Positions 1 to 62,230 of a DNA stretch of 64,000 nucleotides are shown here, piece after piece. The first letter of the stretch is position 1. Every line of letters begins with the position of its first letter. Under the pieces are notes generated by a model. The model had not been told where the DNA came from. It saw only the letters and a program-made list of their open reading frames with translations, and did not search any database. Position numbers and translations under genes: made by a program. The stretch is from Tetraselmis striata (taxonomy: Eukaryota; Chlorophyta; Chlorodendrophyceae; Chlorodendrales; Chlorodendraceae), in the NCBI GenBank assembly GCA_006384855.1, contig VCJN01001798.1, positions 38,209 to 102,208 on the forward strand, read 5' to 3'.

Positions 1-248
1 TAATTTCGCAATGTTTATTGTTGAAGTAGCACGGCGTAATGGATACGGCGAGTGAATCCGGGATAATGTGTGCGTTGAATGTGCGCGCGCAGCGTTGTGC
101 GGCGGTGTGCGGCGGTGTGCGGCGGTGTGCGGCGGTGTGCACCGATGTTAATATAGTGTGAATATTATATCGGCCGTAGACGATCAGGTCTGGCAGCACC
201 GCCCGTGCTTGTAAATAAGCGACAATGGGTCTAGTCTCCCGCTAGTCT

Positions 249-1412
249 GTGCACCGCAAGTGCACTCCGCAAGCCTCGCCTCCATCCGCGTCGGAACCGG
301 TAGTAAGTGTTGTTGTGTGCGCACATCGTGACAACATTACACGGTGGCAATTGCAATTATTAGCGGTGGATAATGTGAAGGCGTTTTCGAAATCGACAGA
401 GAATGAGGCGGTGCTGGCGGAGTGCATTGGCGGTGCACAGAATAGCGTGTTGCTGGGGTTTTGGCTGCATCGGACGCCGTATTCCCACCCATCCGGCACG
501 GAATGTCCGGTTTTCACACATTTGTGTGTTAATAAAGCAGTGTGAATATTACGCGTCTTTTACGCCGGGTGGATGGGCATCCGGCGTCCGATGCACCCCA
601 ATTATTTGCAGCACGCTACTCTACGCACCCCCAACGCACTCCGCAAGCCTCGCCTCCATCCGCGTCGGAACCGGTAGTAAGTGTTGTTGTGTGCGCACAT
701 CGTGACAACATTACACGGTGGCAATTGCAATTAGCGGTGGACAATGTGAAGGCGTTTTCGAAATCGACAGAGAATGTGGCGGTGCTGGCGGAGTGCATTG
801 GCGGTGCACAGAATAGCGTGTTGCTGGGGTTTTGGCTGCATCGGACGCCGTATTCCCACCCATCCGGCACGGAATGTCCGGTTTTCACACATTTGTGTGT
901 TAATAAAGTGTGAATATTACGCGTCTTTTACGCCGGGTGGGTGGGCATCCGGCGTCCGATGCACCCCAATTATTTGCAGCACGCTACTCTACGCACCCCC
1001 AACGCACTCCGCAAGCCTCGCCTCCATCCGCGTCGGAACCGGTAGTAAGTGTTGTTGTGTGCGCACATCGTGACAACATTACACGGTGGCAATTGCAATT
1101 AGCGGTGGGTAATGTGAAGGCGTTTTCGAAATCGACAGAGAATGAGGCGGTGCTGGCGGAGTGCATTGGCGGTGCACAGAATAGCGTGTTGCTGGGGTTT
1201 TGGCTGCATCGGACGCCGTATTCCCACCCATCCGGCACGGAATGTCCGGTTTTCACACATTTGCGTGTGAATATATATATTGTGAATATTCCGTAGGCGT
1301 CTTTTACGCTGGGTGGATGGGCATCCGGCGTCCGATGCACCCCGAATCTCACCAACACGCTACTCTACGCACCCCCAACGCATTCCGCCAGCCCCCCCTC
1401 TTTCCGCGCAGG
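249..1412. repeat. Tandem repeat of ~370-bp modules, copy A (3 units plus a diverged partial)
   Basis: The motif ACTCCGCAAGCC starts at about 264, 638 and 1,006, giving spacings of 374 and 368 bp. A diverged partial unit (ACGCATTCCGCCAGCC) begins near 1,376. Each unit holds two arms that are imperfect reverse complements, for example 467-497 and 564-594, separated by about 66 bp. The second transposon copy carries two full units, so unit number varies between copies. Open frames through these units, in both directions, follow the repeat and are not taken as genes. Confidence 0.9.
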
Positions 1413-1622
1413 TCCTACGTTCCATTGTATGTATATACATACGTACATGTACTGCTCCGAAACCAGCCCAAACTTAATGAGTGCACAAGTGTAAATGGGG
1501 GGGGGGGGGGGGGTGGGGGGGGGATGTGGCGGCGGGGCATCCACTCACACATACCCCGGCGATGCATGACAAATATTACATGCCGTGGCGGGTCGGCGGG
1601 CCGACCCGGCGGGCCGACCCGG

Positions 1623-1655
<33 letters not shown>

Positions 1656-2318
1656 CGTCTATTCAACTACACGTGCGACAGTGTCGTTTCGTGGAGCAGT
1701 ATATGTGCCCGGCCTCATTTATACCGCCCCCTACCTGCGCTGCATGGTCTACCCCTAAGAATTACTTAGCACAAACCGCCATTACTTAATAGGAACCTAG
1801 CACAGCCAGGCTTATATGCCCGCTTTTTCCCGATCAACTTCTACGCACTTTCCGTCCCTCAACCGCCGGACATGGGGGTTAAGCCGCCAGCCTCGGCAGT
1901 TGCTTAGCCAGACTTGGCATCCCGTACCGTGTCCATGGCTTCGCAGCTCTGCCGCTGGCACACGCCGAGTCCGGCGCTTGCTGCCGCGGGGTTGCGCACG
2001 CATGCACGCACGGTAATACGCCGCCGACGCCGCCACGCTTACTTCCACCACCTTCGCCAGCCGCAGCTTCGCACGCCTTTCCGCCGACATACGAAACGCA
2101 CGAATCCCCCCCCGTCCCCGCGTCATGTATATTATATTCGAGGCGACTATGCGGGGCGCAGCACACGCCGCGGCGTGGGTCGGCGGAGCGACAGGCGGCG
2201 GGAGCCCTAATGGCCGGGCAGTATCCACACCCACACAGGCACCGCCGCTCACCTCCGACGCGGATGAACCGCCTCCCAAAGGAAACATGCCGGTTGGTGG
2301 TAAGCCCAGCAGGCGTGC

Positions 2319-3020
2319 GTGGGGTGCCGGTGCCGGTACTGGTGCGACGGAGCTGTCGCGTCAGGAACCGCACCGCATGTGGAGCAACACATGGCGGTGC
2401 CGGCCCCACCTATGTCTAGGGCCACCTCCTCACAACACCCCGCCACGATGGCGTCGGCCACCGCCGACGGCGCCGTTGCGGGGGGGGACGCCCTGCCAGG
2501 CGACGATGATGCGCCTGGTGCGCCGCGTCAGGAGGCGGAGGAGGCCGTGGTCGAGGCGACTGATCGGGCTGAGGGGATTGTCGAGGCGAGCGAGGCTGCG
2601 CTCGCGCCACCCGCCCCGCAGCCACCTGCGGGACATGCCGACTTGCTCGTCGCCATGTTGACCGGAGCACTACGAGCAGTGGCGGGAGGCGGCCACATGC
2701 ACTATCATGTGCGTGTCCTGGCCGGACGCCCGTCATGCGTGGACTGCGGCCAACGGACGGACTGGGAGTGTTGCTGCGACGGCACCCCGGCTTTGTGCGG
2801 CCCCAAGTACCCATGCATGGCGACCCATCAGCGGGCAGTCCCCTGCCCGACCACGGCCACGAAGAGGGCGGAGTTCCGCCATGTCAGGGACGCGTTCCAC
2901 GACGCGACTCGCGCCGCCGTGTGTGAGGCTTCCGAGAAGGCACGCGCGGCTGGTAGGGTGCGCAGGGTGAGGCGGCGGACGGCCCAGGAGCTGAAGGAGA
3001 GCGAGACATGCCGTCAGTGA
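2319..3020 (+). CDS. Transposon-borne cysteine-rich ORF, copy A
   Basis: A 233-residue open frame ending at TGA 3,018-3,020. The N-terminal half is Ala/Pro/Glu-rich. The C-terminal half has closely spaced cysteines: CVDC, then ECCCDG, then LCGPKYPC and a following histidine, compatible with a small zinc-binding fold, and ends in an Arg-rich stretch (GRVRRVRRRT). The second copy (52,775-53,248) preserves the last 157 residues with only a few substitutions, which supports real coding. A Cys/His tail of this spacing is reminiscent of the C-terminal domain of PiggyBac-type transposases, but the element's ends and target duplication do not fit PiggyBac and no DDE catalytic region is seen upstream. 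The start is uncertain and an upstream exon is possible. Function unknown. Confidence 0.4.
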   Translation: MGCRCRYWCDGAVASGTAPHVEQHMAVPAPPMSRATSSQHPATMASATADGAVAGGDALPGDDDAPGAPRQEAEEAVVEATDRAEGIVEASEAALAPPAPQPPAGHADLLVAMLTGALRAVAGGGHMHYHVRVLAGRPSCVDCGQRTDWECCCDGTPALCGPKYPCMATHQRAVPCPTTATKRAEFRHVRDAFHDATRAAVCEASEKARAAGRVRRVRRRTAQELKESETCRQ

Positions 3021-3197
3021 GGTCGGGCGCAATGTCATTGGGTGGGGCACACGGACGTGTAACACTTGCACTTTGCGCGTACTGCTGGGTTACATCCAGG
3101 CTGCGTCACACTATGCAACCGGAAAGGCTGCGTTGCTACTGCAAACAATGCGACGCCTCACTCTGTAGCAACCGCTGCCGCGCCTATCAAACAGCCG

Positions 3198-3228
<31 letters not shown>

Positions 3229-3740
3229 GCGCGGGATCCCCGCCATCAGCAGCTTGCACTTGCACTTTGCGCGTACTGCTGGGTTACATCCAGGCGGCGT
3301 CACACCGGAAAGGCTGCGTTGCTACTGCAAACGATGCTACGCCTCACTCGGTAGCAACCGCTGCCCCGCCCATCCCACTCGGGATGCTGAGAGCAGCTAA
3401 AGGGCACCGGGGGCGGGGCAAGAGGGAGCAGGGCCAAAGATTGTGGAAGAGCGGGGACCCGCTTGCATGCCATCGTATTATATCTTGCACAATATCTGTT
3501 GCTGCACTCATATCTCACATCACTAGCTTAGCTATAGTGATCCCCCCCCCCCCCCCCCCCGCACCGCGTACGCACAAGCCTGGGTATACGCATCAACTGC
3601 CCGCCGGGATGAGAAACTGGTATTGGTAGTGTGTCTGTGGGGTGGAGGGGGGGCAAAAGAGCTGCCAATTGCTGCCAAGCTGGTGCGTTACATTGGGGCA
3701 GGCGCTGGGCAGACAATTGGGGCTCGCTTCAGAGCATTGT

Positions 3741-4775
3741 CTAATGCCTATGCGGCTGCGCCGCCTCCGCCGCATGCAGACTCTGCGGGCTCACCAGCAC
3801 CGCCACCTCAGTCATGCGGCCCTGCATCCCGCAGCCCGCCGCCGTCAGCCAGATCAGAGGTATCCAGAAGCCAGTGCTGGGGTTGTTGCGGCATGACCGC
3901 ATAGTTTTCAGCGGCTGCCGTCCACAGCTTGTAATGCATCCCTTTCCGCCGATTCCGCTGTATGCGCTGTCTTGGCGCCGCGCTGCCCCGGCCGCCGCGC
4001 CTTGGCGCCGCGCTGCCCCGGCCAAGGCGCGCTGCCCCGGCCGCCGCGCCTTGGCGCCGCGCTGCCCCGGCCGCCGCGCCTTGGCGCCGCGCTGCCCCGG
4101 CCGCCGCGCCTTGGCGCCGCGCTGCCCCGGCCGCCGCGCCTTGGCGCCGCGCTGCCCCGGCCGCCGCGCCTTGGCGCCGCGCTGCCCCGGCCGCCGAGCC
4201 TTGGCGCCGCGCTGCCCCGGCCGCCGCGCCTTGGCGCCGCGCTGCCCCGGCCGCCGCGCCTTGGCGCCGCGCTGCCCCGGCCGCCGCGCCTTGGCGCCGC
4301 GCTGCCCCGGCCCGCGCGCCTTGGCGCCGCGCGGGGTATTGAGTCCTCCCCTCCCTAGTGAGCGCGTCCACCTGCGCCTTGCGCTCGGGGCCGTCCTCCT
4401 CCGTCACCACATTCTGCAACCCCCACCGCGTGACGAACCACGCAGCTCCTTGCATGCGCTTGTACATGTGCCCAAGCACCGCCTGGGGACGCGAAGCTCC
4501 TTCTCGGTCATGATCGCCTTCACCCGGGCCTCCTCGAGCAGCGGACCGGCGTTAAGAATGGAAAACGTTTCCATGTGGTGCAAGCAGTCCTCCATGACCC
4601 AGCCGGACTGCACCGTCACCTTGCCTGACCCTGCAGTCATGGAGGGGAATGCCGTCACGCCCACGCCCACGCCCACGCCCACGCCGCCCCACGCCCGGGG
4701 GGGGGGGGGGTGGTTACCTTTCGATTCTTGGACACTGCAAACGAAGGGCGCAACCGTCCATACCGTCTTCGCCAA
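3741..4775 (-). pseudogene. Transposon minus-strand ORF with 10-residue repeats, frame broken (copy A)
   Basis: Minus-strand coding potential matches the intact frame of the second copy (53,968-54,597). Read on the minus strand, a region with MEDCLHHMETFSILNAGPL is followed by one containing MYKRMQGAAWFVTRWGLQN, then by repeats of ARRQGAAAGA encoded by a 30-bp minisatellite. In this copy a ~20-bp irregular unit near 4,021-4,040 shifts the frame, so the original tail (3,741-4,025) is no longer joined to the head. The first two parts are also in different frames, which could be an intron (an acceptor-like CCCCAG lies at their junction) or decay. No family recognised. Confidence 0.4.
3971..4332. 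repeat. 30-bp GC-rich minisatellite, copy A (12 units)
   Basis: The core TTGGCGCCGC recurs every 30 bp from about 4,051 to 4,321, with two further occurrences at 3,972 and about 4,002 and one irregular ~20-bp insertion near 4,021. Twelve occurrences are seen here against nine in the second transposon copy. The 30-bp period is a multiple of three and encodes ARRQGAAAGA on the minus strand, so whole-unit gains or losses preserve the frame. Confidence 0.95.
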
Positions 4776-5133
4776 CGGGGTCCTCCCCCACGCCCATCAC
4801 ATCGTCCACCTTCGAGCCGCCGTCGTCCGAGACCGGCGCCGGCGGGCCGTTTCCGACGGCTGCAGCTACTCCTGCTGCCGCCCCTGTTGTTGCTGCTGCT
4901 GCTGCTGCCGCCCCTGTTGCTGCTGCTTGTGATAAGGCGGCCTTGCGGCGCAACTTAGCCGCACGCTTCAACGAGTGGCTACAGTTCGGGTATTTCCGGA
5001 AGTGCCGCTCTCGCGCCGTCCTTTCACTACTACCCGTCACGATGCCGTGGCAGTGCTTGCATGTGTACACGCCATCCTTCGACACACTCGCTATCCATCC
5101 CTTTGCCGGCATGCCTGCTGCCGCGCGCGGCAC
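4714..5133 (-). CDS. Transposon-borne CxxC...H...C zinc-finger-like ORF, copy A
   Basis: A minus-strand frame of 139 residues. Near the N-terminus is DGVYTCKHCHGIV, followed about 15 residues later by ERHFRKYPNCSHS. The Cys-x2-Cys ... His ... Cys spacing resembles a BED-type or related DNA-binding finger, a common N-terminal module of eukaryotic transposases. A basic stretch (KRAAKLRRKAA), an Ala/Thr-rich linker and an acidic segment follow. The second copy carries the same ORF (55,505-56,014) with a longer N-terminus. Here the terminal inversion at 5,131 replaced the sequence upstream of the start, so any promoter there has been changed. Assignment to a particular finger family is an inference from spacing only. 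Confidence 0.45.
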   Translation of the reverse strand: MPRAAAGMPAKGWIASVSKDGVYTCKHCHGIVTGSSERTARERHFRKYPNCSHSLKRAAKLRRKAALSQAAATGAAAAAAATTGAAAGVAAAVGNGPPAPVSDDGGSKVDDVMGVGEDPVGEDGMDGCALRLQCPRIER

Positions 5134-5725
5134 TGTGAGATTCAGATGTGACGTAAATGTGCCCTACTGGTGACGAACGACGACATACGGGGACGATACG
5201 GGACGGACGAGGGACGTGGATTTCATACCCAGTAGCGACGACTATCGCGCGCGACCTGTAAAGTACTATATGAATTTCTCGTTTCCATAATTTCATCAAA
5301 TTGATATGCGCACGCGGGCTCGCGTGTCGCCCGCCGACGCGGAGCACCCGGGCTAAGTACAGGCGGATGTACGCACTCATTGCACATCGCCGCACATCGC
5401 TGACCGCACATCGCTGACCGCTGACCCCGCGGTGTGCCGCGATGTGCGGCACGACGGGCGGAGGTGTGGGCGGATGTAGGTGGTACGGTAGGTGGTAGGC
5501 GGTAGGTGGTGTTCGTAGGTGCGCGTTTTAATGCAGCCGCCCTAACTGCTGATGATTGTGTAACGCCCCAGCACGCGCATGAAGTACGGGGTCGCCTCAC
5601 GGTCACCGCCGCTCACCGTTGAATCAAGCGCGGACAGCCGCGCACTCGCATCTGTGTTGCCTGCCGGTGGTGGGTTACATCCACCCCAACTCTCAACCCC
5701 CCCCCCCCCCCCCCCCCCGCCCCCC
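5131..5725 (-). repeat. Inverted right terminus of transposon copy A
   Basis: This segment is the reverse complement of 55,911-56,502, the right end of the second copy. It starts exactly at the outermost CACTG of the element and ends in the C-run that is a G-run in the second copy. The flanking sequence after 5,725 (GTATAGTGGTCC) is unrelated to the transposon. Confidence 0.85.
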
Positions 5726-8392: not shown

Positions 8393-9447
8393 ATGGCGTG
8401 GCCGCGCTACTGCTTGCTGGCGCTGCTGGCGCTGTCCGTCGCCTCCTGCGGTGGTAGCTCCTACCCCACGCTCCCCATCTTCTTCTCGGGCTCGGGCAAG
8501 ACGGCGCCCACCAAGAAGGCAGGCAGGGAGCTGCCAGCGCTGCACTACTGGCTGGACTTTACGCTGCCGGAGGTCGACCCGCGGCGGGCGCTCGCGGTGC
8601 GCTGACCTGGCCCACCGTCACGAGGACAAGGGCGCTGCCGGCTGTGGCAGGGGCCGGCTGCTGCGGGGTGCCGATGGCTGATTCCGATACCAAGCGAGAT
8701 AATGAGGGGTGGCTGGGCCGTCCCGAGCGGTAGCAAGCACGCAAGCAGGCGCGTTGCGGTCTGACGCCTGGCCCCGCTCCGCCGGCCTCCGCTAGCTGTA
8801 CCACAGGATGCTGCCGATTGCCGGCCAGGCAGGCCTGGGCTCGCGAGGGATCATCATGTATGGCGAGGGTCACACCCTGCAGCAGGGTAATGCCCGCGCC
8901 TGGTCTGCCTGCAGCGCAGCGTGCCTGTCCTGTTGCCGAACACGGGCGGGCGCTGCTGCCGACATCAGCTACAATGAATAGTAGTTTAAAATTAACACAA
9001 GAACAGCAGCTGCCGCCACTGACCCACACCTCCCTGGCGCTGCCTCCAGGCGTCACCATCCTGTCCAGAGCGGCGCGCGTGGCGGCCCGCGCGCTGCAGG
9101 CGCACCCCTGGCTCAGCGTCACCGTCTTCACGACGCGGCAGACCTTCACGGCATGGGCGGCGCTGCAGGCACAGCGCGGCGCCTCCACCAGCTACCCCTT
9201 CCAGTCCGCCATCTTCTTCGAGGTGCGCCCGGGGTGGCCATCTGCGCCGAGCAAGCTGGGCCTGGCCAGGTGCGCGTTGGGCTTTGCCCGGTTCTGCCCT
9301 GGTTCTGCAGCCTTGAAACAGCTCCGCCGGCCCCGCAGGACATCCAAATGCCCACGCTGGAGCTGCCCCAGCCGCCCTCCAATGTCACGCTGGACCCCGC
9401 CGCGCAGTCCGCCCGGCAGCAGGAGCACGTACTGCCACATCCCCCTC

Positions 9448-9479
<32 letters not shown>

Positions 9480-11137: not shown

Positions 11138-11698
11138 CACCCACCAACTTAATCGCAGCTGCAGCATGGTTGCTTTCCCGCTCTCACCATTGCTGCTACT
11201 ATTGTAACACTAAAATGCGGCCATCGCAGTCCCACTGACGGGCCTATCTGACTACCCACTTTTGGGATGCGGCGATGCCTTTAAACCACATTCAGCTCCA
11301 TGTAAGGATGCCCTCTCCATCTCTTTCTCTCTCTGGGGCCCTGCTGTGAGCTGTGGGCACATCGCCCTGCTGCTGCTGGGAACCTGGCCCCTCTCACCAT
11401 CACCATCACCCTTCCACACCGCAAACATGAAGCAACGGCTTAACATGCCTGTGCGTCTGACTTGTGCGCTCAAACGTGCACTTGGGCATCCCCACGTAAC
11501 TGCCACATTGCCCCATCTTGTGGTCATTGCCAGTCACTTGTGGTACATTGCATGTTGAAGTGTCAAAGTTAGTAGCTACCTGTAGCCCATGATCGCCACA
11601 TCCATGTGGCAATCATGCAGCGGCAGCTCTAAGGCAGCGCGATCAGTGGCCCGTGACCATGGCAGCGGCGGCTTTGAGGCGGACGGTGGTGCTAGTAT
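11138..11698. other. Convergent intergenic region
   Basis: A 560-bp gap between the stop of the plus-strand glycosyltransferase-like gene and the stop of the minus-strand dynein light chain gene. It should hold both 3' untranslated regions. The small open frames across it show no domain and I see nothing further. Confidence 0.5.
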
Positions 11699-12013
11699 TT
11701 ACATGGTTGCGGGGTCCTGGATGACCACCAGGTAGTAAATCTGGTTGTTGTCAAAGTGGGGGGCGATGATGATCTCGTGCTTCTTGGACCTCACGCGCAC
11801 AAACTGGAGCTCGTCCTCCGGGTCCGGCGCCTTCACGCAGCTGCGCGCCTTCTCCGTGAACCGGCTGATGAGTGCCGCGTGCTGCACGGTCTCGTCGTTC
11901 CCCATGGTGGTGCGGATGGCGATGCCGTCCCCGTTGATAATCATGCTGCCTATCACGCCCTTGTGGGACGAGATGCGCTTGATGGTCTCCTCCACCTGGG
12001 CAATGTCCGCCAT
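11699..12013 (-). CDS. Dynein light chain, LC7/roadblock family
   Basis: A single-exon 104-residue protein starting MADIAQVEETIKRISSHKGV and ending VVIQDPATM. The whole length matches the Roadblock/LC7 domain, including GSMIINGDGIAIRTTMGN and the C-terminal YYLVVIQDP strand. Family members are 95-105 residues and form dimers that bind dynein intermediate chains in cytoplasmic dynein and in axonemal outer arms. Presence of the gene fits a flagellated alga, although cytoplasmic dynein alone would also explain it. The start is fixed by length and by the conserved N-terminal helix. Whether it is the LC7a or LC7b paralogue cannot be decided here. It is transcribed towards the upstream neighbour (convergent). 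Confidence 0.93.
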   Translation of the reverse strand: MADIAQVEETIKRISSHKGVIGSMIINGDGIAIRTTMGNDETVQHAALISRFTEKARSCVKAPDPEDELQFVRVRSKKHEIIIAPHFDNNQIYYLVVIQDPATM

Positions 12014-12510
12014 CCTGACTGACTGCTACGCTGAGGGCCACTGAGGCTCCGATAACGGCAGAGCTCACTCGACCTGCTGCTTGCCGGAAGCGGATGATTC
12101 TTTTTTTCCCGAAACACACCGTCGCCGTGTTGCTGTGCCTGGGCGACTCTCGCGGGCCGCGGATATGCACCGCGCGCAGCTGCTCCACCGGTACCTGCCT
12201 TGCTCACCCGCGGACGGCACGACTTCAGCTCTGGTAGCGAGGCCCAAGGCTAGCTTGACACGTTCTAGCTGGGAGAATGGGGTGGGGTGTGTGGGCCCTG
12301 TAGGAAGATGGGGCCAGCCGGCATGTGCCGCGCGTGTCGCCGCATGCCGCGCGCCAAGCGCCTTCGCTCGTCACGGCGATAATCTTCGCTCGATAATCTT
12401 CTCTCGTCGCGGCGATAGAGCGCGTTCCCACGCTCGCGCGGCCCCCGCCCGGTCGGCCCGCCTGATTCGGCCGCTTCTAAGTACCCAGGTGCTGATTACC
12501 TCGGAAACAG
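12014..12510. other. Upstream region of the dynein light chain gene
   Basis: Expected 5' leader and promoter of the minus-strand gene. A partly duplicated segment rich in CTTCGCTCG and ATAATCTT lies near 12,360-12,420. No coding sequence is recognised before the inverted-terminus element that begins at about 12,513. Confidence 0.4.
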
Positions 12511-12512
12511 TG

Positions 12513-14695
12513 CTGGTGTGAATTACAGAAAAGGCCAGGAATGATTCTACCCCTATGAAATAGACGAAACTAAAATAAAACAAGTTATTACTACATCAGG
12601 GCTTTCACAAACCCTATAACTAAAATAGAAACTGCTTTTAATAGAAAACTAAATAAAACCGTAAAGCAGACGGAGAAGTACAAAATGACCAACACAGCAA
12701 GTAGTCGATATTAGCACTCTGAACCGTGCGCGCATGACTCATCCATCCCGCCCCGTGCGGCATGCGGGCCGCTTTTAGGCGGCTTGCTGTGTCGATATTT
12801 TATTTAAGGATTACTGCCGGTACTGTAGTAATAATGGGGTGTTAGCCCCGACCTCCTGGATACGCCCTCCATGCGCACGCAGCTGTCCAGTAGTACAAGA
12901 AGTCCTATTTGGGGGCCTCGGCATCGGCGATAATGTGGTTATCGCAGATGCCTCCCACATCGGCGATGCCGCCCTTGTGGTCGGCCAAGCTGTGACTTTC
13001 CTCCGCGCTCAACACGCCACCCTGAGCGATGCCGGGGCGTTCTTTTCCGACCCGTCCGGCGTATTCAGCCCTCATAGCCTCTACCTTGTTGGGGCGTCCT
13101 CGATCCACCATGCTTTGGCCACCCCAGCGTTGGAGCTCGATGCCGGCGCCAAAGTGTCGGCGCCGATGTGGGCTGTCGAGCTTCGCGCTGCTCATACCCG
13201 TGTCGTTGACGAGTGTGGAGACGCAGTGCTCGAGGATCTAGCGGGGCCGCTGGCCTCTGCCCTAAAGTTGCTCCCCTCCAAGCGCTCCCACGTTGCCCGT
13301 GCCGGCTGCTCGGCCGCCGGGGCTGAGCCGGCGTCTGCAATGCGCTCGGCGGCCGACCTCTAAGCTATCCCGCGTTACTCGGATTTCCCCTTGCACTCCA
13401 GGCGGAAAGTACAGGAAACCATGAGCCACCGCATTCACACCGTCCGTTTCACAAAGCTTGCTGCGCGTATGCCTACAAGCGGCCCTGACAGCAACCGCTT
13501 CCGAGGCCGCCTCTTACGCGCTACGACAGTGTTCCTGGTGACTGATCCTCCAAGTGAGGGTCGCCTTGGTGACGTCCGTGAGCGTTCCCCTGCGTACTAC
13601 GATTCCATGTTCCGCGTTGCCGCTTGCCGCCCATTTGGCCTTCCGGCGGCTCTTGTCCTCTCCCTTGGCGAGCCATGCCCTTGTGCTTTTTGCTCCTTCC
13701 CGGTACAAGGTATGCTGGCCCGTTTTGAAGATGCTTGAGTATATTTCACTCCAACTTCGGCGGTCGCGTACGCTGATCACGTGGCACGTTGCTCTGGGGG
13801 CGACTCCAATCCCGCCGCACACGAGTGGCGGCACATGGCCTTTCCGACACTTGCCATGGCGTGAAGTCCGCGCTGGGCGTGGGTGTCCAGATCCTGACGG
13901 ACCCGTCGGTGCTTGTTTCTCTTCCGAAGGGCAGCGACGGCCGGCCGGCCGATGTTGGGCTTTTGGGGTATGGCGGTATCCGCGGGAACACGGTTGTTGT
14001 CGATACCACCATTGCCCCTATCCTCGGCGTGTCGAGCTCGGATCCAACGACTGCTTTGCGGGCTGCAGAGCGCCACAAAATCCAGAAGTATGACGAGGGT
14101 GTAGTCCGAAACGCCACCGGCATGCTTCGCTTTGTTCCTTTCGCCGTTTCGAGTTTGGCTCGCTGGCCCCGCACGCTGAGGCTGTCTTGGTGGAGATCGC
14201 GAAAGCTAGCCACACACACACTGGCCAAAAAATCGGCCAGCTCTTGTCTGCGTGGCGCCGCCGTTTCTCCTTGCTCATCAACATGGCACATGCAGACAGC
14301 GTTCTTGGCGGGGTCGCGGCCGCGCGTGCGGCACGTGATGGTGCTCCTGCACCTGCGTCGCGTCGCTCGTCGGCCTATGCCTGTGTTGCTATGACCCGGG
14401 TCATTGGCTGCAAGCGTCCTCGCCGCGGCTGATAGTCTACCCCGGGGCGGTGGTCCCTTTGGTTCCTGGCAGCTAAGCGACTTCGTGGTTCCCTTGGCTC
14501 CTCCTTGGTTCTTGGCTCCCTGGCCTCCTGCTCGACCTTGGTTTCAGGCTTATGTCTCTCTTTTGCTGGAAACCGTTCATAGTTGCTGTTAGTTCTGTTT
14601 CTGAAAGCCCTGATGTAAATAATACCGGTACTTTACAGGTAGCTTTTCGCGGTAGGTGGATCTGTTACGGGTACTGGCCTTTTTGTAATTCACAC
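12513..14695. mobile_element. Inverted-terminus element enclosing a retroelement-like relic
   Basis: The left end reads GTGTGAATTACAGAAAAGGC (about 12,514-12,533); the right end, 14,671-14,695, is its near reverse complement (GGCCTTTTTGTAATTCACAC). A second pair lies further in: CTACATCAGGGCTTTCA (about 12,590-12,606) opposite TGAAAGCCCTGATGTAAA (about 14,602-14,619). Together they define ~2.2 kb with imperfect inverted termini of roughly 95 bp. I cannot see a clear target-site duplication. The inner motif AAAGCCCTGATGTAAA recurs at about 33,949 and GGTGTGAATTACA at about 57,761, suggesting further family members or remnants. DNA transposon, DIRS-like element and foldback element all remain possible. 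Confidence 0.6.
12839..14433 (+). pseudogene. Decayed C-terminal region of a non-LTR-type reverse transcriptase ORF
   Basis: Coding-like frames at 12,839-13,363, 13,391-13,738, 13,789-14,160 and 14,187-14,433 are broken by shifts. The clearest part (about 13,860-14,420) reads LPKGSDGRPADVGLLGYGG, then TVVVDTTIAPILGVSSSDPT, then AAERHKIQKYDEGV. This is the pattern of the domain that follows the reverse transcriptase in many algal and protist non-LTR elements (RPAD..., D-x-T-x-x-x-P, then a Lys/Tyr helix). The frame slips by one base near 14,150 (at TCGAGTTTGGCT), after which FGSLAPHAEAVLVEIAKAS continues the expected order. No catalytic YxDD box is visible, so only the tail is present. Family assignment is by remembered pattern and is moderate. 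Confidence 0.45.
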
Positions 14696-48986: not shown

Positions 48987-49121
48987 TGTTAGGGTTACCA
49001 CCATAACCCTACCTGCATACCTATATCCGCACACCTATACAATCATACTCGTACCACTCACTTCCTTATATTAACGCAACTACTACATGCAACTAAGCTG
49101 CTGATCCGCCCACACACATAT
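48987..49121 (+). repeat. 5' LTR of the gypsy element, first part
   Basis: These 135 bp are identical to 61,874-62,008 of the 3' LTR. They end with TAT (49,119-49,121), which is repeated at 56,503-56,505 across the inserted DNA transposon. Confidence 0.95.
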
Positions 49122-49843
49122 CACTGTGAGATTCAGATGTGACATACAGGTGACGAAGCACTACTAGTAGCGACTATTATTTATCCGTGAAGGCTGCTGC
49201 TGGTGGCGGCACGTCCATCCAGTTACGTGCGAGTACATCCGGCGTTATTGCCGGCGGGCGATAAATCCTTTTTGTCATCATTGAGGAAGTCGTACCAGCC
49301 CGGTGAAGCGCTACATGGCACTGACGTACAAGGTACAAGGTTGTCCGTGTAGTACCGGGTAGTACGCGATATATTTATTACGCCGGTACCGGGTATTTAG
49401 TACCCGGTACCCGGTACCCGGGCACGATGACGAGTGGTCCTGTGGATAACTACGACTATTAGTACATGGGAGCGCAAATCTCAGCCGTACTATTCGGTAA
49501 CACTGGGGAATTTTGTGTACATTATAGCTAGTACTGCTGAACGGGCCTGCCAGCCGTCCGATCAAAGGTCATCAGATGGGCGGTTTGGCTGCCATGTTTT
49601 GCCAAAGAGTGCTCACGTTACATAAATATTCGCGAGGGGGAGGGGGGGGGGCAGGCAGCGGTTTGCCGAAGAATGTTTGAATTACAATATTCGAGACAGC
49701 TGCCATCGGGGATTGTGGCCCCCGGGGGGGGGGGGGGGGGGGGGGGTGCGGGGGCGGGGGGACCACGCCCCCCCCGCCCCCCCCCCCGCCCCCCCTCGCC
49801 GCCAGCCGCTCCCGCCTGGGGGGGGGGGGTAAGGGGGCGGGGG

Positions 49844-50125
49844 CTACTGCTTGTTCTTGTTCTTGCGTGCCCGGGGGACCCTCCGCTTCGACGATCTCGC
49901 TGCCTCCGCCTCCGCCTCCGCCTCCGCCTGCGCCTGCGCCTCCGACTCCGCCTCCGACTCCGCGACCGTCAGTTTCTTACCTCGGCGTTTCTTCACTGGC
50001 CTCTTCCGCTTCTTGTCATCCGTCAGTGTCTTCACCACCCCGGGAGGCTGTGCCGTCGACGACGCCGCCATGAGCTTCCTTACCTTCGCGTCGGGACGCC
50101 CCCTGTGCGCAGACACCCACAACAA
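49844..50125 (-). CDS. Transposon-borne basic/acidic repeat ORF with nuclear-localisation-like stretch
   Basis: A 93-codon minus-strand frame with DDKKRKRPVKKRRGKK, then alternating Glu-Ala-Gln repeats (SEAESEAQAQAEAEAEAEA) and a basic tail ending RARKNKNKQ. The Lys/Arg cluster resembles a nuclear localisation signal. Immediately upstream on the same strand, 50,144-50,566 is open for 140 codons and ends VVAEEAASSAA before a stop; the two may be exons of one gene or a frameshifted frame. No family recognised. The repeat part is encoded by a CCTCCG-rich hexanucleotide run, so expansion could have built it. Confidence 0.35.
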   Translation of the reverse strand: MLWVSAHRGRPDAKVRKLMAASSTAQPPGVVKTLTDDKKRKRPVKKRRGKKLTVAESEAESEAQAQAEAEAEAEAARSSKRRVPRARKNKNKQ

Positions 50126-50853
50126 GCCACAATCGTTTCGCCTTTAAGCGGCTGAGGATGCGGCCTCCTCGGCCACCACGAGTTGCGCCGCTGGCACTGT
50201 GGAAGCCTTGGCGTTGAGGTGGGCCTTACGGCGCTCCCGGACGAACCTGCGCGCGGCACAAGTTAGCCACGAGTGGGTGCGTGCTAATGTGGAGGATGGA
50301 GTGTTTTGTTGCGCGCCCACCTTGTCACGCGTTTCCTCATGTCTTTCTCGTCCTCCTCGATGCCGGCGGCGCGGACACGCGAGACAGCAAGGCTCGCCGC
50401 CCACTTTTGCCCGGGGGGGCGAGGTCGGCCATGGCGCTGTGAGCGGTGAAGGGGGGGGGGGGGCGGCCGAGGTGGAGAAACTAACACCCAGTCGACGACC
50501 GCCTTCCGCAGCAGTCAACGACACATCGGAGGCGAGGAGCAGCGCGCCACTACTATTTATATGCACGTATTGTCAAGAGCTAGTCGGTGCGGCATTGTGT
50601 CGGTGTAATTTCGCAATGTTTATTGTTGAAGTAGCACGGCGTAATGGATACGGCGAGTGAATCCGGGATAATGTGTGCGACGAATGTGCGCGCGCAGCGT
50701 TGTGCGGCGGTGTGCGGCGGTGTGCGGCGGTATGCAGCGATGTTAATATAGTGTGAATATTATATCGGCCGTAGACGATCAGGTCTGGCAGCACCGCCCG
50801 TGCTTGTAAATAAGCGACAATGGATCTAGTCTCCCGCTAGTCTGTGCACCGCA

Positions 50854-51640
50854 AGTGCACTCCGCAAGCCTCGCCTCCATCCGCGTCGGAACCGGTAGTA
50901 AGTGTTGTTGTGTGCGCACATCGTGACAACATTACACGGTGGCAATTGCAATTATTAGCGGTGGATAATGTGAAGGCGTTTTCGAAATCGACAGAGAATG
51001 AGGCGGTGCTGGCGGAGTGCATTGGCGGTGCATAGAATAGCGTGTTGCTGGGGTTTTGGCTGCATCGGACGCCGTATTCCCACCCATCCGGCACGGAATG
51101 TCCGGTTTTCACACATTTGTGTGTTAATAAAGTGTGAATATTACGCGTCTTTTACGCCGGGTGGGTGGGCATCCGGCGTCCGATGCACCCCAATTATTTG
51201 CAGCACGCTACTCTACGCACCCCCAACGCACTCCGCAAGCCTCGCCTCCATCCGCGTCGGAACCGGTAGTAAGTGTTGTTGTGTGCGCACATCGTGACAA
51301 CATTACACGGTGGCAATTGCAAATTATTAGCGGTGGATAATGTGAAGGCGTTTTCGAAATCGACAGAGAATGAGGCGGTGCTGGCGGAGTGCATTGGCGG
51401 TGCATAGAATAGCGTGTTGCTGGGGTTTTGGCTGCATCGGACGCCGTATTCCCACCCATCCGGCACGGAATGTCCGGTTTTCACACATTTGCGTGTGAAT
51501 ATATATAGTGTGAATATTACGTACGCGTCTTTTACGCCGGGTGGATGGGCATCCGGCGTCCGATGCACCCCGAATCTCACCAACACGCTACTCTACGCAC
51601 CCCCAACGCACTCCGCCAGCCCCGCCTCTTTCCGCGCAGG
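50854..51640. repeat. Tandem repeat of ~370-bp modules, copy B (2 units plus a diverged partial)
   Basis: ACTCCGCAAGCC starts at about 50,859 and 51,230, and a diverged partial unit with ACTCCGCCAGCC begins at about 51,610. This is one unit fewer than in copy A. The same imperfect inverted arms occur in each unit. Confidence 0.9.
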
Positions 51641-52774
51641 TCCTACGTTCCATTGTATGTATATACATACGTACATGTACTGCTCCGAAACCAGCCCAAA
51701 CTTAATGAGTGCACAAGTGTAAATGGGGGGGGGGGGGGGGGGGATGTGGCGGCGGGGCATCCACTCACACATACCCCGGCGATGCATGACAGATATTACA
51801 TGCCGTGGCGGGTCGGCGGGCCGACCCGGCGGGGGGGGGGGAGGGGGGGGCGTCTATTCAACTACACGTGCGACAGTGTCGTTTCGTGGAGCAGTATATG
51901 TGCCCGGCCTCATTTATACCGCCCCCTACCTGCGCTGCACGGTCTACCCCTACGAATTACCCCTACGAATTACTACGAATTACTTACTACGAATTACAAA
52001 CCGCCATTACTTAATAGGAACCTAGCACAGCCAGGCTTATATGCCCGCTTTCCCGATCAACTTCTACGCACTTTCCGTCCCTCAACCGCCGGACATGGGG
52101 GTTAAGCCGCCAGCCTCGGCAGTTGCTTAGCCAGACTTGGCATCCCGTACCGTGTCCATGGCTTCGCAGCTCTGCCGCTGGCACACGCCGAGTCCGGCGC
52201 TTGCTGCCGCGGGGTTGCGCACGCATGCACGCACGGTAATACGCCGCCGACGCCGCCACGCTTACTTCCACCACCTTCGCCAGCCGCAGCTTCGCACGCC
52301 TTTCCGCCGACATACGAAACGCACGAATCCCCCCCCCCCCCCCCCCGTCCCCGCGTCATGTATATTATATTCGAGGCGACTATGCGGGGCGCAGCACACG
52401 CCGCGGCGTGGGTCGGCGGAGCGGCATGCGGCGGGAGCCCTAATGGCCGGGCAGTATCCACACCCACACCGGCACCGCCGCTCACCTCCGACGCGGATGA
52501 ACCGCCTCCCAAAGGAAACATGCCGGTTGGTGGTAAGCCCAGCATGCGTGGGGTGCCGGCGCCGGTACTGGTGCGACGGAGCTGTCGCGTCAGGAACCGC
52601 ACCGCATGTGGAGCAACACATGGCGGTGCCGGCCCCACCTATGTCTAGGGCCACCTCCTCACAACACCCCGCCACGACGGCGTCGGCCACCGCCGACGGC
52701 GCCGTTGCGGGGGGGACGCCCTGCCAGGCGACGATGATGCGCCTGGTGCGCCGCGTCAGGAGGCGGAGGAGGCC

Positions 52775-53248
52775 GTGGTCGAGGCGACTGATCGGGCTGA
52801 GGGGGTTGTCGAGGCGAGCGAGGCTGCGCTCGCGCCACCCGCCCCGCAGCCACCTGCGGGACATGCCGACTTGCTCGTCGCCATGTTGACCGGAGCACTA
52901 CGAGCAGTGGCGGGAGGCGGCCACATGCACTATCATGTGCGTGTCCTGGCCGGACGCCCGTCATGCGTGGACTGCGGCCAACGGACGGACTGGGAGTGTT
53001 GCTGCGACGGCACCCCGGCTTTGTGCGGCCCCAAGTACCCATGCATGGCGACCCATCAGCGGGCAGTCCCCTGCCCGACCACGGCCACGAAGAGGGCGGA
53101 GTTCCGCCATGTCAGGGACGCGTTCCACGACGCGACTCGCGCCGCCGTGTGTGCGGCTTCCGAGAAGGCACGCGCGGCTGGTAGGGTGCGCAGGGTGAGG
53201 CGGCGGACGGCCCAGGAGATGAAGGAGAGCGAGACATGCCGTCAGTGA
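52775..53248 (+). CDS. Transposon-borne cysteine-rich ORF, copy B
   Basis: Matches the last 157 residues of the ORF at 2,319-3,020, including CVDCGQRTDWECCCDG and LCGPKYPC, with a few substitutions (for example Glu to Ala near VCAASEK and Leu to Met in AQEMKE). Upstream the frame is lost relative to copy A because a G-run near 52,710 is shorter, so either this copy is broken at its 5' end or translation starts inside. The high conservation of the Cys-rich half argues for a real product in the source element. Confidence 0.4.
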   Translation: MVEATDRAEGVVEASEAALAPPAPQPPAGHADLLVAMLTGALRAVAGGGHMHYHVRVLAGRPSCVDCGQRTDWECCCDGTPALCGPKYPCMATHQRAVPCPTTATKRAEFRHVRDAFHDATRAAVCAASEKARAAGRVRRVRRRTAQEMKESETCRQ

Positions 53249-53967
53249 GGTCGGGCGCAATGTCATTGGGTGGGGCACACGGACGTGTAACACTTGCACT
53301 TTGCGCGTACTGCTGGGTTACATCCAGGCTGCGTCACACTATGCAACCGGAAAGGCTGCGTTGCTACTGCAAACGATGCGACGCCTCACTCTGTAGCAAC
53401 CGCTGCCGCGCCTAGCCCACAGCCGCTGCCCCCCCCCCCCCCCCCCCCCGCGCGCGGGATCCCCGCCATCAGCAGCTTGCACTTGCACTTTGCGCGTACT
53501 GCTGGGTTACATCCAGGCGGCGTCACACCGGAAAGGCTGCGTTGCTACTGCAAACGATGCTACGCCTCACTCGGTAGCAACCGCTGCCCCGCCCATCCCA
53601 CTCGGGATGCTGAGAGCAGCTAAAGGGCACCGGGGGCGGGGCAAGAGGGAGCAGGGCCAATGATTGTGGAAGAGCGGAGACCCGCTTGCATGCCATCGTA
53701 TTATATCTTGCACAATATCTGTTGCTGCACTCATATCTCACATCACTAGCTTAGCTATAGTGACCCCCCCCCCCCCCCCCCCCCCCCGCACCGCGTACGC
53801 ACAAGCCTGGGTATACGCATCAACTGCCCGCCGGGATGAGAAACTGGTATTGGTAGTGTGTCTGTGGGGTGGAGGGGGGGCAAAAGAGCTGCCAATTGCT
53901 GCCAAGCTGGTGCGTTACATTGGGGCAGGCGCTGGGCAGACAATTGGGGCTCGCTTCAGAGCATTGT

Positions 53968-54597
53968 CTAGTGCCTATGCGGCTGCGTCGCCTCCGCCGC
54001 ATGCAGACTCTCCGGGCTCACCAGCACCGCCACCTCAGTCATGCGGCCCTGCATCCCGCAGCCCGCCGCCGTCAGCCAGATCAGAGGTATCCAGAAGTCA
54101 GTGCTGGGGTTGTTGCGGCATGACCGCATAGTTTTCAGCGGCTGCCGTCCACAGCTTGTAATGCATCCCTTTCCGCCGATTCCGCTGTATGCGCTGTCTT
54201 GGCGCCGCGCTGCCCCGGCCGCCGCGCCTTGGCGCCGCGCTGCCCCGGCCGCCGCGCCTTGGCGCCGCACTGCCCCGGCCGCCGCGCCTTGGCACCGCGC
54301 TGCCCCGGCCGCCGCGCCTTGGCGCCGCGCTGCCCCGGCCGCCGCGCCTTGGCGCCGCGCTGCCCCGGCCGCCGCGCCTTGGCGCCGCGCTGCCCCGGCC
54401 GCCGCGCCTTGGCGCCGCGCTGCCCCGGCCGCCGCGCCTTGGCGACGCGCTGGGTATCGAGTCCTCCCCTCCCTAGTGAGCGCGTCCACCTGCGCCTTGC
54501 GCTCGGGGCCGTCCTCCTCCGTCACCACATTCTGCAACCCCCACCGCGTGACGAACCACGCAGCTCCTTGCATGCGCTTGTACATGTGCCCAAGCAC
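53968..54597 (-). CDS. Transposon minus-strand ORF with ARRQGAAAGA repeats, copy B (open)
   Basis: 209 codons, open through the 30-bp minisatellite. The head contains MLGHMYKRMQGAAWFVTRW and NVVTEEDGPERKAQVDAL; the middle is about eight to nine repeats of a 10-residue unit; the tail includes NPSTDFWIPLIWLTAAGCG. The true start may lie upstream, since a segment with MEDCLHHMETFSILNAGPL (54,522-54,788) precedes it and could be joined by splicing at a CCCCAG acceptor-like site. No family recognised. Confidence 0.4.
   Translation of the reverse strand: MLGHMYKRMQGAAWFVTRWGLQNVVTEEDGPERKAQVDALTREGRTRYPARRQGAAAGAARRQGAAAGAARRQGAAAGAARRQGAAAGAARRQGAAAGAARCQGAAAGAVRRQGAAAGAARRQGAAAGAARRQDSAYSGIGGKGCITSCGRQPLKTMRSCRNNPSTDFWIPLIWLTAAGCGMQGRMTEVAVLVSPESLHAAEATQPHRH
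54198..54452. repeat. 30-bp GC-rich minisatellite, copy B (9 units)
   Basis: TTGGCGCCGC or close variants start every 30 bp from 54,199 to 54,439. The last unit is diverged (TTGGCGACGC). Copy A has 12. Confidence 0.95.
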
Positions 54598-55148
54598 CGC
54601 CTGGGGACGCGAAGCTCCTTCTCGGTCATGATCGCCTTCACCCGGGCCTCCTCGAGCAGCGGACCGGCGTTAAGAATGGAAAACGTTTCCATGTGGTGCA
54701 AGCAGTCCTCCATGACCCAGCCGGACTGCACCGTCACCTTGCTTGACCCTGCAGTCATGGAGGGGAATGCCGTCACGCCCACGCCCACGCCGACGCCGGG
54801 GGGGGGGGGGGGGGGGGTTTACCTTTCGATTCTTGGACACTGCAAACGAAGGGCGCAACTTGGTTCAAAGTTGCTGGGTATCGGGACTAAAGCCTGGCGC
54901 CGGTCTTCCTGCTTCATAGCTCGGAATCCAATGTGGCCCTGCACGGTGACAAATTTCCTCCAGAAGTCCCTTCCCAAGCCAAAAAAAAACAGGTGGAACG
55001 GCGCGAGGGGGAAGAGGTTGACCATGCTGACATAGCCCACGACCACATGCACATGGCACACGCCATGGCAGCCAGTGTTCTGCTTGGCCTCCGCCAGCCG
55101 GGTTGTGTTGAACGCACGCCGGGCAAGGTGCGTGATTCACTGGACAAG

Positions 55149-55544
55149 TCATCGCCTTGATGGACGGTTACCAAGCGAGCCTCCCCGTCCGCATCCACAG
55201 GGGGGTGCTCCTGGGCAGCCGCCATAGCCTCCACAACCTGCCACGCCGACCGGGCGGGTGCGTGTGATTCCATACAACCGCAGTTGAGTGGTGCCACCAG
55301 CACGCAGGCCGGGCCCACTCACCTCTGAACGCAGAAGGCCCACAATGTCCCCGTCCTCGAAAACAGCGCGCCACTGGGTCGCCCCGCCGTAGTCCTCCAA
55401 CACCCACTCGGTAACGACGCCGGTTATCACGCCGTAGTGCCATACTCCCCGGAACTTCTTGGCGATGACCTTCATGTAGAAGTCGCCGTGATCGCCTTTC
55501 CATATCACGCCCTCATCGCGGGTTCCACGCCCGCCGGCGGCCAC
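55149..55544 (-). CDS. Transposon-borne exon-like segment, possibly Tudor/Agenet-like (absent from copy A)
   Basis: On the minus strand: FYMKVIAKKFRGVWHYGVIT, then WRAVFEDGDIVGLLRSE, followed by a strong donor (GTGAGTGGGC) near 55,319-55,328. The pattern V-x-K-x-F-x-G-V-W-x-x-G-x-V ... V-x-F/Y-E-D-G-D resembles small Tudor-type beta barrels that occur in some chromatin-associated and transposon-encoded proteins. It probably follows the finger-like ORF 55,505-56,014 in the same transcript. The assignment rests on pattern only. All of it falls within the ~700 bp missing from copy A. Confidence 0.35.
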   Translation of the reverse strand: MAAGGRGTRDEGVIWKGDHGDFYMKVIAKKFRGVWHYGVITGVVTEWVLEDYGGATQWRAVFEDGDIVGLLRSEVSGPGLRAGGTTQLRLYGITRTRPVGVAGCGGYGGCPGAPPCGCGRGGSLGNRPSRR

Positions 55545-56014
55545 GCAGGCGCGTCGATGTCCATACCGTCTTCGCCAACGGGGTCCTCCCCCACGCCCAT
55601 CACATCGTCCACCTTCGAGCCGCCGTCGTCCGAGACCGGCGCCGGCGGGCCGTTTCCGACGGCTGCAGCTACTCCTGCTGCCGCCCCTGTTGTTGTTGCT
55701 GCTGCTGCTTGTGATAAGGCGGCCTTGCGGCGCAACTTAGCCGCACGCTTCAACGAGTGGCTACAGTTCGGGAATTTTAGGAAGTGCCGCTCTCGCGCCG
55801 TCCTTTCACTACTGCCCGTCACGATGCCGTGGCAGTGCTTGCATGTGTACACGCCATCCTTCGACACACTCGATATCCATCCCTTTGCCGGCATGCCTGC
55901 TGCCGCGCGCGGGGGGCGGGGGGGGGGGGGGGGGGGTTGAGAGTTGGGGTGGATGTAACCCACCACCGGCAGGCAACACAGATGCGAGTGCGCGGCTGTC
56001 CGCGCTTGATTCAA
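55505..56014 (-). CDS. Transposon-borne CxxC...H...C zinc-finger-like ORF, copy B
   Basis: 169 codons on the minus strand. It contains SVSKDGVYTCKHCHGIV, then ERHFLKFPNCSHSLKRAAKL, an Ala/Thr-rich linker and the acidic SDDGGSKVDDVMGVGEDPV. Residue differences from copy A in the finger are conservative (RKY to LKF), so selection or recent common origin preserved it. The first ~40 residues come from sequence that copy A has inverted away. DNA binding is an inference from the Cys/His spacing. Confidence 0.45.
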   Translation of the reverse strand: MNQARTAAHSHLCCLPVVGYIHPNSQPPPPPPRPPRAAAGMPAKGWISSVSKDGVYTCKHCHGIVTGSSERTARERHFLKFPNCSHSLKRAAKLRRKAALSQAAAATTTGAAAGVAAAVGNGPPAPVSDDGGSKVDDVMGVGEDPVGEDGMDIDAPAWPPAGVEPAMRA

Positions 56015-56502
56015 CGGTGAGCGGCGGTGACCGTGAGGCGACCCCGTACTTCATGCGCGTGCTGGGGCGTTACACAGTCATCAGCAGTTAGGGCGGCTGC
56101 ATTAAAACGCGCACCTACAAACACCACCTACCGCCTACCACCTACCGTACCACCTACATCCGCCCACACCTCCTCCCGTCGTGCCGCACATCGCCGCACA
56201 CCGCGGGGTCAGCGGTCAGCGATGTGCGGTCAGCGATGTGCGGCGATGTGCAATGAGTGCGTACATCCGCCTGTACTTAGCCCGGGTGCTCCGCGTCGGC
56301 GGGCGACACGCGAGCCCGCGTGCGCATATCAATTTGATGAAATTATGGAAACGAGAAATTCATATAGTACTTTACAGGTCGCGTGCGATAGTCGTCGCTA
56401 CTGGGTATGAAATCCACGTCCCTCGTCCGTCCCGTATCGTCCCCGTATGTCGTCGTTCGTCACCAGTAGGGCACATTTACGTCACATCTGAATCTCACAG
56501 TG

Positions 56503-56726
56503 TATGCCGCGTGCTTGCCACACGTCATGCCCTCGTCAGCCGTTATGCCCCGATGACTCCCTGATGACTCCAAGCCTAGATTGCATATCCAAGCCTAATG
56601 CCTGCATGCGAACGGCTGCCAAGCCGATAGTTGTATAAAGCCGTGTACACCTCGGTACACGTAACAAGATCCTTTGCTGCAAACCTTTTCCTTGTCTATG
56701 CTAAAGTCTCTCACCTAAAGCTTACA
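56503..56726 (+). repeat. 5' LTR of the gypsy element, second part
   Basis: Matches 62,006-62,230 of the 3' LTR apart from one base (GGTACACGTAAC here, GGTACACTGTAAC there). It contains a TATA-like GTTGTATAAAGCC near 56,629-56,641 that could be the retrotransposon promoter. A possible primer-binding site, TGGTTTCGCTGAGC, begins at about 56,728. Confidence 0.93.
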
Positions 56727-61660: not shown

Positions 61661-61873
61661 TTCAACTATGCACTGCCATCCCGTATTCCACGATTCCTGG
61701 GGGCCATATGCTAACCTGAATTTTCGTAGTGATATGCTCCATGGTTATGCCCGACACAATCTTGTCCCTGTGGTTATGCTTACGCACACTGATCATCGTG
61801 CCCTGTCCGCCGAATACCCCGCCCGCTTCCCTTGCGTATCCCATGGGTCTACTTTTATGGGGCCGGGATGGAA

Positions 61874-62230
61874 TGTTAGGGTTACCACCATAACCCTACC
61901 TGCATACCTATATCCGCACACCTATACAATCATACTCGTACCACTCACTTCCTTATATTAACGCAACTACTACATGCAACTAAGCTGCTGATCCGCCCAC
62001 ACACATATGCCGCGTGCTTGCCACACGTCATGCCCTCGTCAGCCGTTATGCCCCGATGACTCCCTGATGACTCCAAGCCTAGATTGCATATCCAAGCCTA
62101 ATGCCTGCATGCGAACGGCTGCCAAGCCGATAGTTGTATAAAGCCGTGTACACCTCGGTACACTGTAACAAGATCCTTTGCTGCAAACCTTTTCCTTGTC
62201 TATGCTAAAGTCTCTCACCTAAAGCTTACA
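61874..62230 (+). repeat. 3' LTR of the gypsy element, uninterrupted
   Basis: 357 bp, from TGTTAGGG to CTTACA. It serves as the empty-site reference for the DNA transposon insertion in the 5' LTR (single TAT at 62,006-62,008). A purine-rich tract precedes it and GCTGA follows it. Confidence 0.95.

Follow-up and report, generated by a model that had tools for sequence, protein, structure and literature searches.

Among the CACTA/EnSpm DNA transposons, dSpm-type elements are non-autonomous deletion derivatives. PiggyBac transposons duplicate the target TTAA. According to PMC12730594, the wider CMC clade has mostly CA..TG ends and target site duplications (TSDs) of 2–5 bp, CAC..GTG ends with 3-bp TSDs being those of EnSpm, and CMC-type transposases share a C(2)C motif after the second D; the same source gives TGT..ACA or CATCA..TGATG as the ends of Plavaka and an 8-bp TSD for KDZ/Zisupton. 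In addition, PMC2528002 and PMC8978399 report Ulp1/C48 domains in plant CACTA elements. Here we analysed a 7.4-kb element at positions 49122–56502 of a 64,000-nucleotide stretch of the Tetraselmis striata genome (contig VCJN01001798.1, positions 38,209 to 102,208; this whole stretch is called the window, and all coordinates refer to it). We consider it highly probable (roughly 0.84) that this element arose by internal deletion from a larger DNA transposon of CACTA-like (CMC) type and is itself non-autonomous, presumably moved in trans.

The closest likeness is to CACTA/EnSpm (CMC, Transposase_21), with which the family shares CAC..GTG ends, a 3-bp duplication, large size, a candidate transposase of D-D-CxxC-E layout (encoded by gene 1 of fuller relatives), a second gene and the high copy number of internally deleted derivatives. 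It differs in the terminal CACTG instead of CACTA and in gene 1, which is recognised neither by Pfam Transposase_21 nor by any other Pfam model, carries C(3)H in place of H(3-4)H and has a Tudor-like segment near its N-terminus. Plavaka and the fungal EnSpm elements (CMCT clade) are also close; Plavaka, with whose proteins the comparison went through Pfam scans only, has other ends than the CACTG found here. As regards KDZ, the 8-bp TSD of Zisupton is absent, KDZ models gave no match to gene 1, and a search of the own genome that lacked a positive control was empty. PiggyBac differs by the TAT duplication and the other 3-bp sequences at other copies. In a literature search that covered mostly open papers, Repbase not included, no paper was recognised as describing this family. 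All together, a high-copy non-autonomous CACTA-like family is ordinary, and the greater interest lies in the divergent gene 1.

Ends, insertion site and copies of the element

The features that define the borders of the element are the following.

49122..49143, plus strand: left terminal inverted repeat (TIR), CACTGTGAGATTCAGATGTGAC, perfect over 22 bp.
56481..56502, minus strand: right TIR, reverse complement of the left; the outer 272 bp of this end match the relative C925.
49119..49121: left copy of the TSD, TAT, from the flanks and the empty site.
56503..56505: right copy of the TSD, TAT, on the same basis.
61873..62230, plus strand: paralogous pre-insertion site, in which the target repeat is empty, from a match spanning the junction.

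The two TIRs match over 22 bp without mismatch and the element ends read CACTGTG..CACAGTG, the borders with the flanks being ...CATAT/CACTG...CAGTG/TATGC (slashes mark the element limits). Of the terminal characters of CACTA/EnSpm, CAC..GTG TIRs are present and the literal CACTA pentamer is absent; the 3-bp duplication is present, as TAT with an empty site. Specifically, when the joined flanks with a single TAT were searched in the genome, all of the 40 places scored (from 1,506 first-look candidates) matched, each through one match spanning the junction. The empty site in the window reads CCACACACATATGCCGCG uninterrupted through the insertion point, with a one-base difference in length from the joined flanks about 150 bp past the junction. 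From the empty site and the TAT on either side we therefore conclude that the element inserted into a copy of another repeat, duplicating three bases. This bears out the preliminary description, a note made from the letters of the window, which had placed the element in the CACTA class by its ends and target duplication. The target (48987–49121, 56506 onwards and 61873–62230) is a multicopy repeat, and its matches spanning the empty site are 94–100% identical among the 40 scored of the 1,506 candidates.

Subterminal 8-mers recur three times at the left end (equalled in 4.3% of 300 shuffles) and four times at the right end (0 of 300 shuffles). Within the window there are three occurrences of the terminal 18-mer, against 0.01 expected, the third belonging to a damaged second copy of the family at 1–5722.

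Across the 224-Mb genome the terminus was matched 2,393 times with at most 3 mismatches (1,250 forward and 1,143 reverse), and the reversed control gave 0; the genome-wide terminus search suggested in the preliminary description thus brought up thousands of ends. Twenty pairs of facing ends 6–9 kb apart were then fetched from the first 100 places listed and, with the window element, make up the 21 copies used in all copy comparisons. Both ends and most of the interior are common to all 20 fetched copies, with internal gains and losses, and divergence from the majority consensus averages 1.4% (range 0.6–5.9%; 5.9% in L021 and 3.7% in L022). The flanking 3-mers are identical in 10 of the 21 copies (chance 2.6e-13), the 3-bp sequences of the other copies differing from TAT. 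The window element is one of about 1,000 very similar copies, and the family is young and large.

Fuller relatives and the regions lost from the window element

Relatives richer in coding content occur elsewhere in the genome. The first, C142, is 13.85 kb long, has both ends with CCG on either side and carries a minus-strand open reading frame (ORF) missing from the family; with this ORF as query, 153 matches were obtained (146 scored, out of 565 candidates), those listed being 54%–100% identical and most of them stop-free. C105, one of these matches, read over 18 kb, shows one terminus (one mismatch), a finger, a Tudor-like segment and then a 352-aa frame. C925 combines an 885-aa open frame with an exact terminus. 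Its outer 272 bp show no difference from the family consensus and 99.6% identity with the window element (56231–56502), and it holds a 322-aa ORF on the opposite strand between gene 1 and the end, the first half of which lies in DNA 99.3% identical in C1397, up to the edge of the fetched C1397 stretch. C1397 itself has a 1000-aa open frame.

As a separate observation, C142 (L030/L043) contains at joined positions 9091–13943 a 4.85-kb stretch, lying between two right-end parts and mostly unrelated to the window family, part of which is about 82% matched to DNA just outside the C925 end.

Read against C105 and C925, the window element has the following losses and relics.

55126..55133: core-deletion junction, with a loss at 55125/55134 of 1,351 bp relative to C925 or 1,353 bp relative to C105 (alignment and junction search).
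53450..54447: segment in place of 1,250 bp that belong, in C105, to the 3' half of gene 1 (comparison with C105).
50653..50772: gene-2 deletion site; a loss of 3,265 bp relative to C105 lies between 50652 and 50773 and takes in the Ulp1-like gene (alignment).
56034..56230: place where C925 holds 1,458 bp with the 322-aa ORF on the other strand, also missing from C105 (alignment).
55323..55894, minus strand: relic of the first coding segment of gene 1, with a C2HC-type finger (MPAKGW...CKHC...H...C.H) and a Tudor-like segment (KFRGVWHYGVITG...WRAVFEDGD); start set by hand from ORF coordinates.
55238..55322, minus strand: putative gene 1 intron of 85 nt (GTGAGT...GCAG), from shared splice sites.
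54448..55125, minus strand: remnant of the central part of gene 1 (RAFNTTRL...GRDFWRKF...QSGWVMED...HMYKRMQGAAWF), which in the window subtype is interrupted by a deletion of 25 bp.

The core junction is present in 20 of the 21 copies, the exception, L028, having a larger loss there. Genome-wide, it was matched 882 times with at most 3 mismatches, against 69 matches of an intact-core 28-mer and 0 of the controls. Because the putative transposase region is deleted, the window element encodes no transposase, and the non-autonomous state considered in the preliminary description is supported: about 1.35 kb of the transposase core, the 3' half of gene 1 and the second gene are missing. The diverged autonomous lineage which it had offered as the other possibility fits the fuller relatives, as candidates for autonomy, and not the window copy.

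The finger, the intron and the Tudor-like segment (a label given from sequence appearance) lie directly 5' of the core, on the same strand, in C925, C1397 and C105. The splice sites of the putative intron are found in the window copy, in 19 of the 20 other family copies (the exception being again L028), and in C925, C1397 and C142; in a further copy, C1543, the putative intron is 84 nt long with GTGAGC, and the C105 donor is unmatched. Removal of the putative intron preserves the frame over the core-deletion junction. Finger and Tudor-like segments, in separate frames in the window copy, form a single ORF in C925. The finger and Tudor-like ORFs are therefore the 5' part of gene 1, remnants of a gene that belongs to the element itself and was not captured. 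Most of the ORFs that the preliminary description called conserved trace back to this gene.

Gene 1 as a candidate transposase and the competing explanations

The gene 1 frame contains, in order, CPKGCVAF...CPEC; GIRCEDMPPH...NWHPV..GPPEP...; VFLGTWVCDAQG...GCPWC; and LHSAVCRMIH...ELWMENLMVFLK. By eye, this order of segments resembles that of CACTA transposases. A candidate triad, also chosen by eye, consists of D169, D237 (67 residues between them) and E625, and a CPWC motif at 256–259 lies between the candidate D237 and the candidate E625, where transposases of the CMC clade have C(2)C. Gene 1 would accordingly be read as the element's transposase, with a C2HC finger, a Tudor-like segment and then a D-D-E core; in appearance, and probably in function, the element is like a CACTA transposon, with ends of the CACTA type, gene 1 being at most a candidate member of Transposase_21. 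With the C105 core as query, 123 matches were obtained (120 scored, out of 275 candidates). Of these, 34 cover the full core (residues 1–334 or 1–335), and 27 of the 34 are stop-free by hand count.

Several observations weigh against this interpretation. On the protein side, the H(3-4)H motif of the CMC clade is replaced by C-x3-H at 606–610; all forms of gene 1 tried against Pfam (E <= 10) gave chance-level matches only, with no Transposase_21 and no KDZ; a sequence search of the PDB gave no match; and motif I of Transposase_21, as printed in PMC1636069, is absent from the C1397 frame by regular expression, a similar layout, GIRCEDMPPH...SNWHPVAL, being present. On the genomic side, none of the copies bearing gene 1 was read at its two ends (C105 is without the left terminus, C925 was read on the right side only, and C142 is two-ended but coreless), and a stop ends the C105 core frame after 352 aa, with the continuation in another frame. 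The ratio of non-synonymous to synonymous change (Ka/Ks) of the core is 0.53 for C1397 and C925 (12 non-synonymous and 7 synonymous changes), and for C105 it is 0.78 against C925 and 0.86 against C1397, pairs involving C1543 having been left out for their frameshifts; these values, too weak as proof of selection, only weakly suggest purifying selection on the fuller copies.

Finally, the 3-bp flanks are unmatched in 11 of the 21 family copies (L010, L011, L013, L015, L019–L021, L023 and L025–L027), more than so young a family would suggest; because these copies keep intact ends, recombination between copies or assembly joins are the likely cause.

Two further searches returned nothing: PF02992 and PF18758 against the own genome, which is uninformative since 14 control genomes were also empty, and patterns from the 1000-aa frame against viral contigs. 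A telomere pattern was matched 31 times and pointed to no firm taxon. The preliminary description had noted that the coding content matches no standard transposase, and this holds even for the open gene 1 frames, which have no Pfam family beyond chance. By the measure of Pfam, the PDB and open papers, gene 1 appears unusually divergent.

The mechanism that we propose is that the gene 1 protein, made from rarer and larger elements, would bind the shared 22-bp ends, excise the element and insert it with a 3-bp stagger, and that the window family, having lost the core, would be moved in trans by its gene-1-bearing relatives. With 882 junction matches against 69 of the core marker, what had looked like a transposase-free undescribed system can be read as one transposon family living as a parasite on another, its host. 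In addition, gene 1 points to a transposase lineage unseen by Pfam, and such elements would therefore tend toward annotation as unknown repeats. In this family one could also ask, as in a natural experiment, if the landing sites of a transposon are biased by a Tudor-like segment. More tentatively, and with the odds against it, the fuller relatives could represent a deep, so far unprofiled CMC branch in which an N-terminal finger and a Tudor-like reader steer insertion to particular chromatin, next to a convergent Ulp1-type protease gene, with the window family as its dominant parasite.

The strongest of the competing explanations, though an unlikely one, is that a different, unrelated transposase mobilises the family and that the fuller elements carry gene 1 as a mere passenger ORF. 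The lack of Pfam or PDB support for gene 1 as a transposase, and the strict motif I of Transposase_21 not found in it, would favour this explanation; however, gene 1 adjoins the same terminus in C105 and C925, dozens of copies keep an open core, the D-D-(CxxC)-E layout resembles CMC transposases, and the own-genome searches with PF02992 and PF18758 named no other enzyme, although they had no positive control.

It is far less probable that the 7.4-kb element is autonomous in its own right and that one of its ORFs encodes an unrecognised transposase. Several ORFs of more than 150 aa are indeed left in it, and 7 of the 21 copies retain the 25 bases without which the minus-strand ORF is broken (L021 being unscorable and L025 having a larger loss). 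Nevertheless, the one gene that shows transposase features has lost its core and 3' half, finger and Tudor-like segment stand in different frames in the window copy, and the comparison of the 21 copies by codon position revealed no candidate frame in which silent changes clearly and consistently exceed those of the frames beside it, the counts per frame being small. With the deletions and no clear codon signal, the autonomous reading of the window element was dropped. The preliminary description had also called the ORFs conserved: they are present across copies, but this reflects how young the copies are, with no clear sign of selection at codon positions.

The preliminary description had considered a carrier with captured genes. 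That the element captured host genes, namely chromatin-type Tudor and finger genes, is hardly credible, since the two segments, although resembling chromatin proteins by eye, lie with the intron directly 5' of the core on the same strand in C925, C1397 and C105. In favour of capture stands the plus-strand Cys-rich ORF, which this layout does not explain and most of whose DNA is missing from C105.

Gene 2, remaining reading frames and further features of the window

The convergent ORF of C105, here gene 2, matches Peptidase_C48 with E 0.0013 and 19.1 bits, below the cut-off of 20.7, and this is its sole Pfam match at E <= 10. Grapevine Cactavine and Chenopodium Jozin (PMC2528002, PMC8978399) likewise have a C48-like region beside a CACTA-type transposase gene, but the C48-like gene of C105 is on the other strand and converges on gene 1, and its match is weak. 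Other ORFs of the C105 region gave matches below the Pfam cut-offs (CHAD, E 0.012 and 0.11; YmcE_antitoxin, E 0.015) or none. Accessory roles may fall to gene 2, with its likeness to Ulp1, and to the remaining small ORFs.

All four ORFs listed in the preliminary description (finger-like, Tudor-like, 10-residue-repeat and opposite-strand Cys-rich) exist in the window element. Ten ORFs of the element were compared with Pfam and no convincing family was found, the best match being DUF2011 (E 0.0009, under the cut-off) on a charged low-complexity ORF; PDB sequence searches gave chance-level matches or none. The remaining features are the following.

52649..53248, plus strand: Cys-rich ORF, also in C142 with its frame broken.
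50835..51636: direct repeats with a spacing of 371–380 bp, 2 units here and more in some copies (copy comparison).
50020..50652, minus strand: relic of a small third ORF region, interrupted by a 490-bp deletion at 50403/50404 (comparison with fuller relatives).
1..5722, plus strand: second family copy, damaged and cut by the window start (alignment to the family).

The Cys-rich ORF may resemble the C-terminal zinc domain of piggyBac, for which Pfam and the PDB gave no support; the DNA missing from C105 is 52375–53154, and the AlphaFold model of 52853–53245 is too poor for use, with a mean predicted local distance difference score (pLDDT) of 54.5. The 10-residue-repeat ORF is a 30-bp minisatellite (tandem repeat) at about 54198–54467, whose repeat number varies among copies, and the segment at 53450–54447 contains the second copy of a duplicated motif (53480–53601).

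The copy at 1–5722 is without consensus positions 6247–6945. Its right-hand terminus, about 590 bp in length, stands inverted at 5131–5722, with an exact terminus in the wrong orientation directly after 5130; an aborted transposition or an assembly join is a possible origin. Foreign DNA interrupts two copies of the family, with an insert of about 1.4 kb in L016 (element positions 244–1657) and one of about 0.6 kb in L017 (3771–4390), the latter with a direct repeat of about 200 bp, seen by eye, at both ends of the insert. Finally, the window element has unusually many long poly-G/poly-C runs (49718–49830, 51720–51850, 53430–53455, 53764–53795, 54799–54818 and 55907–55936), whose lengths appear variable across copies.

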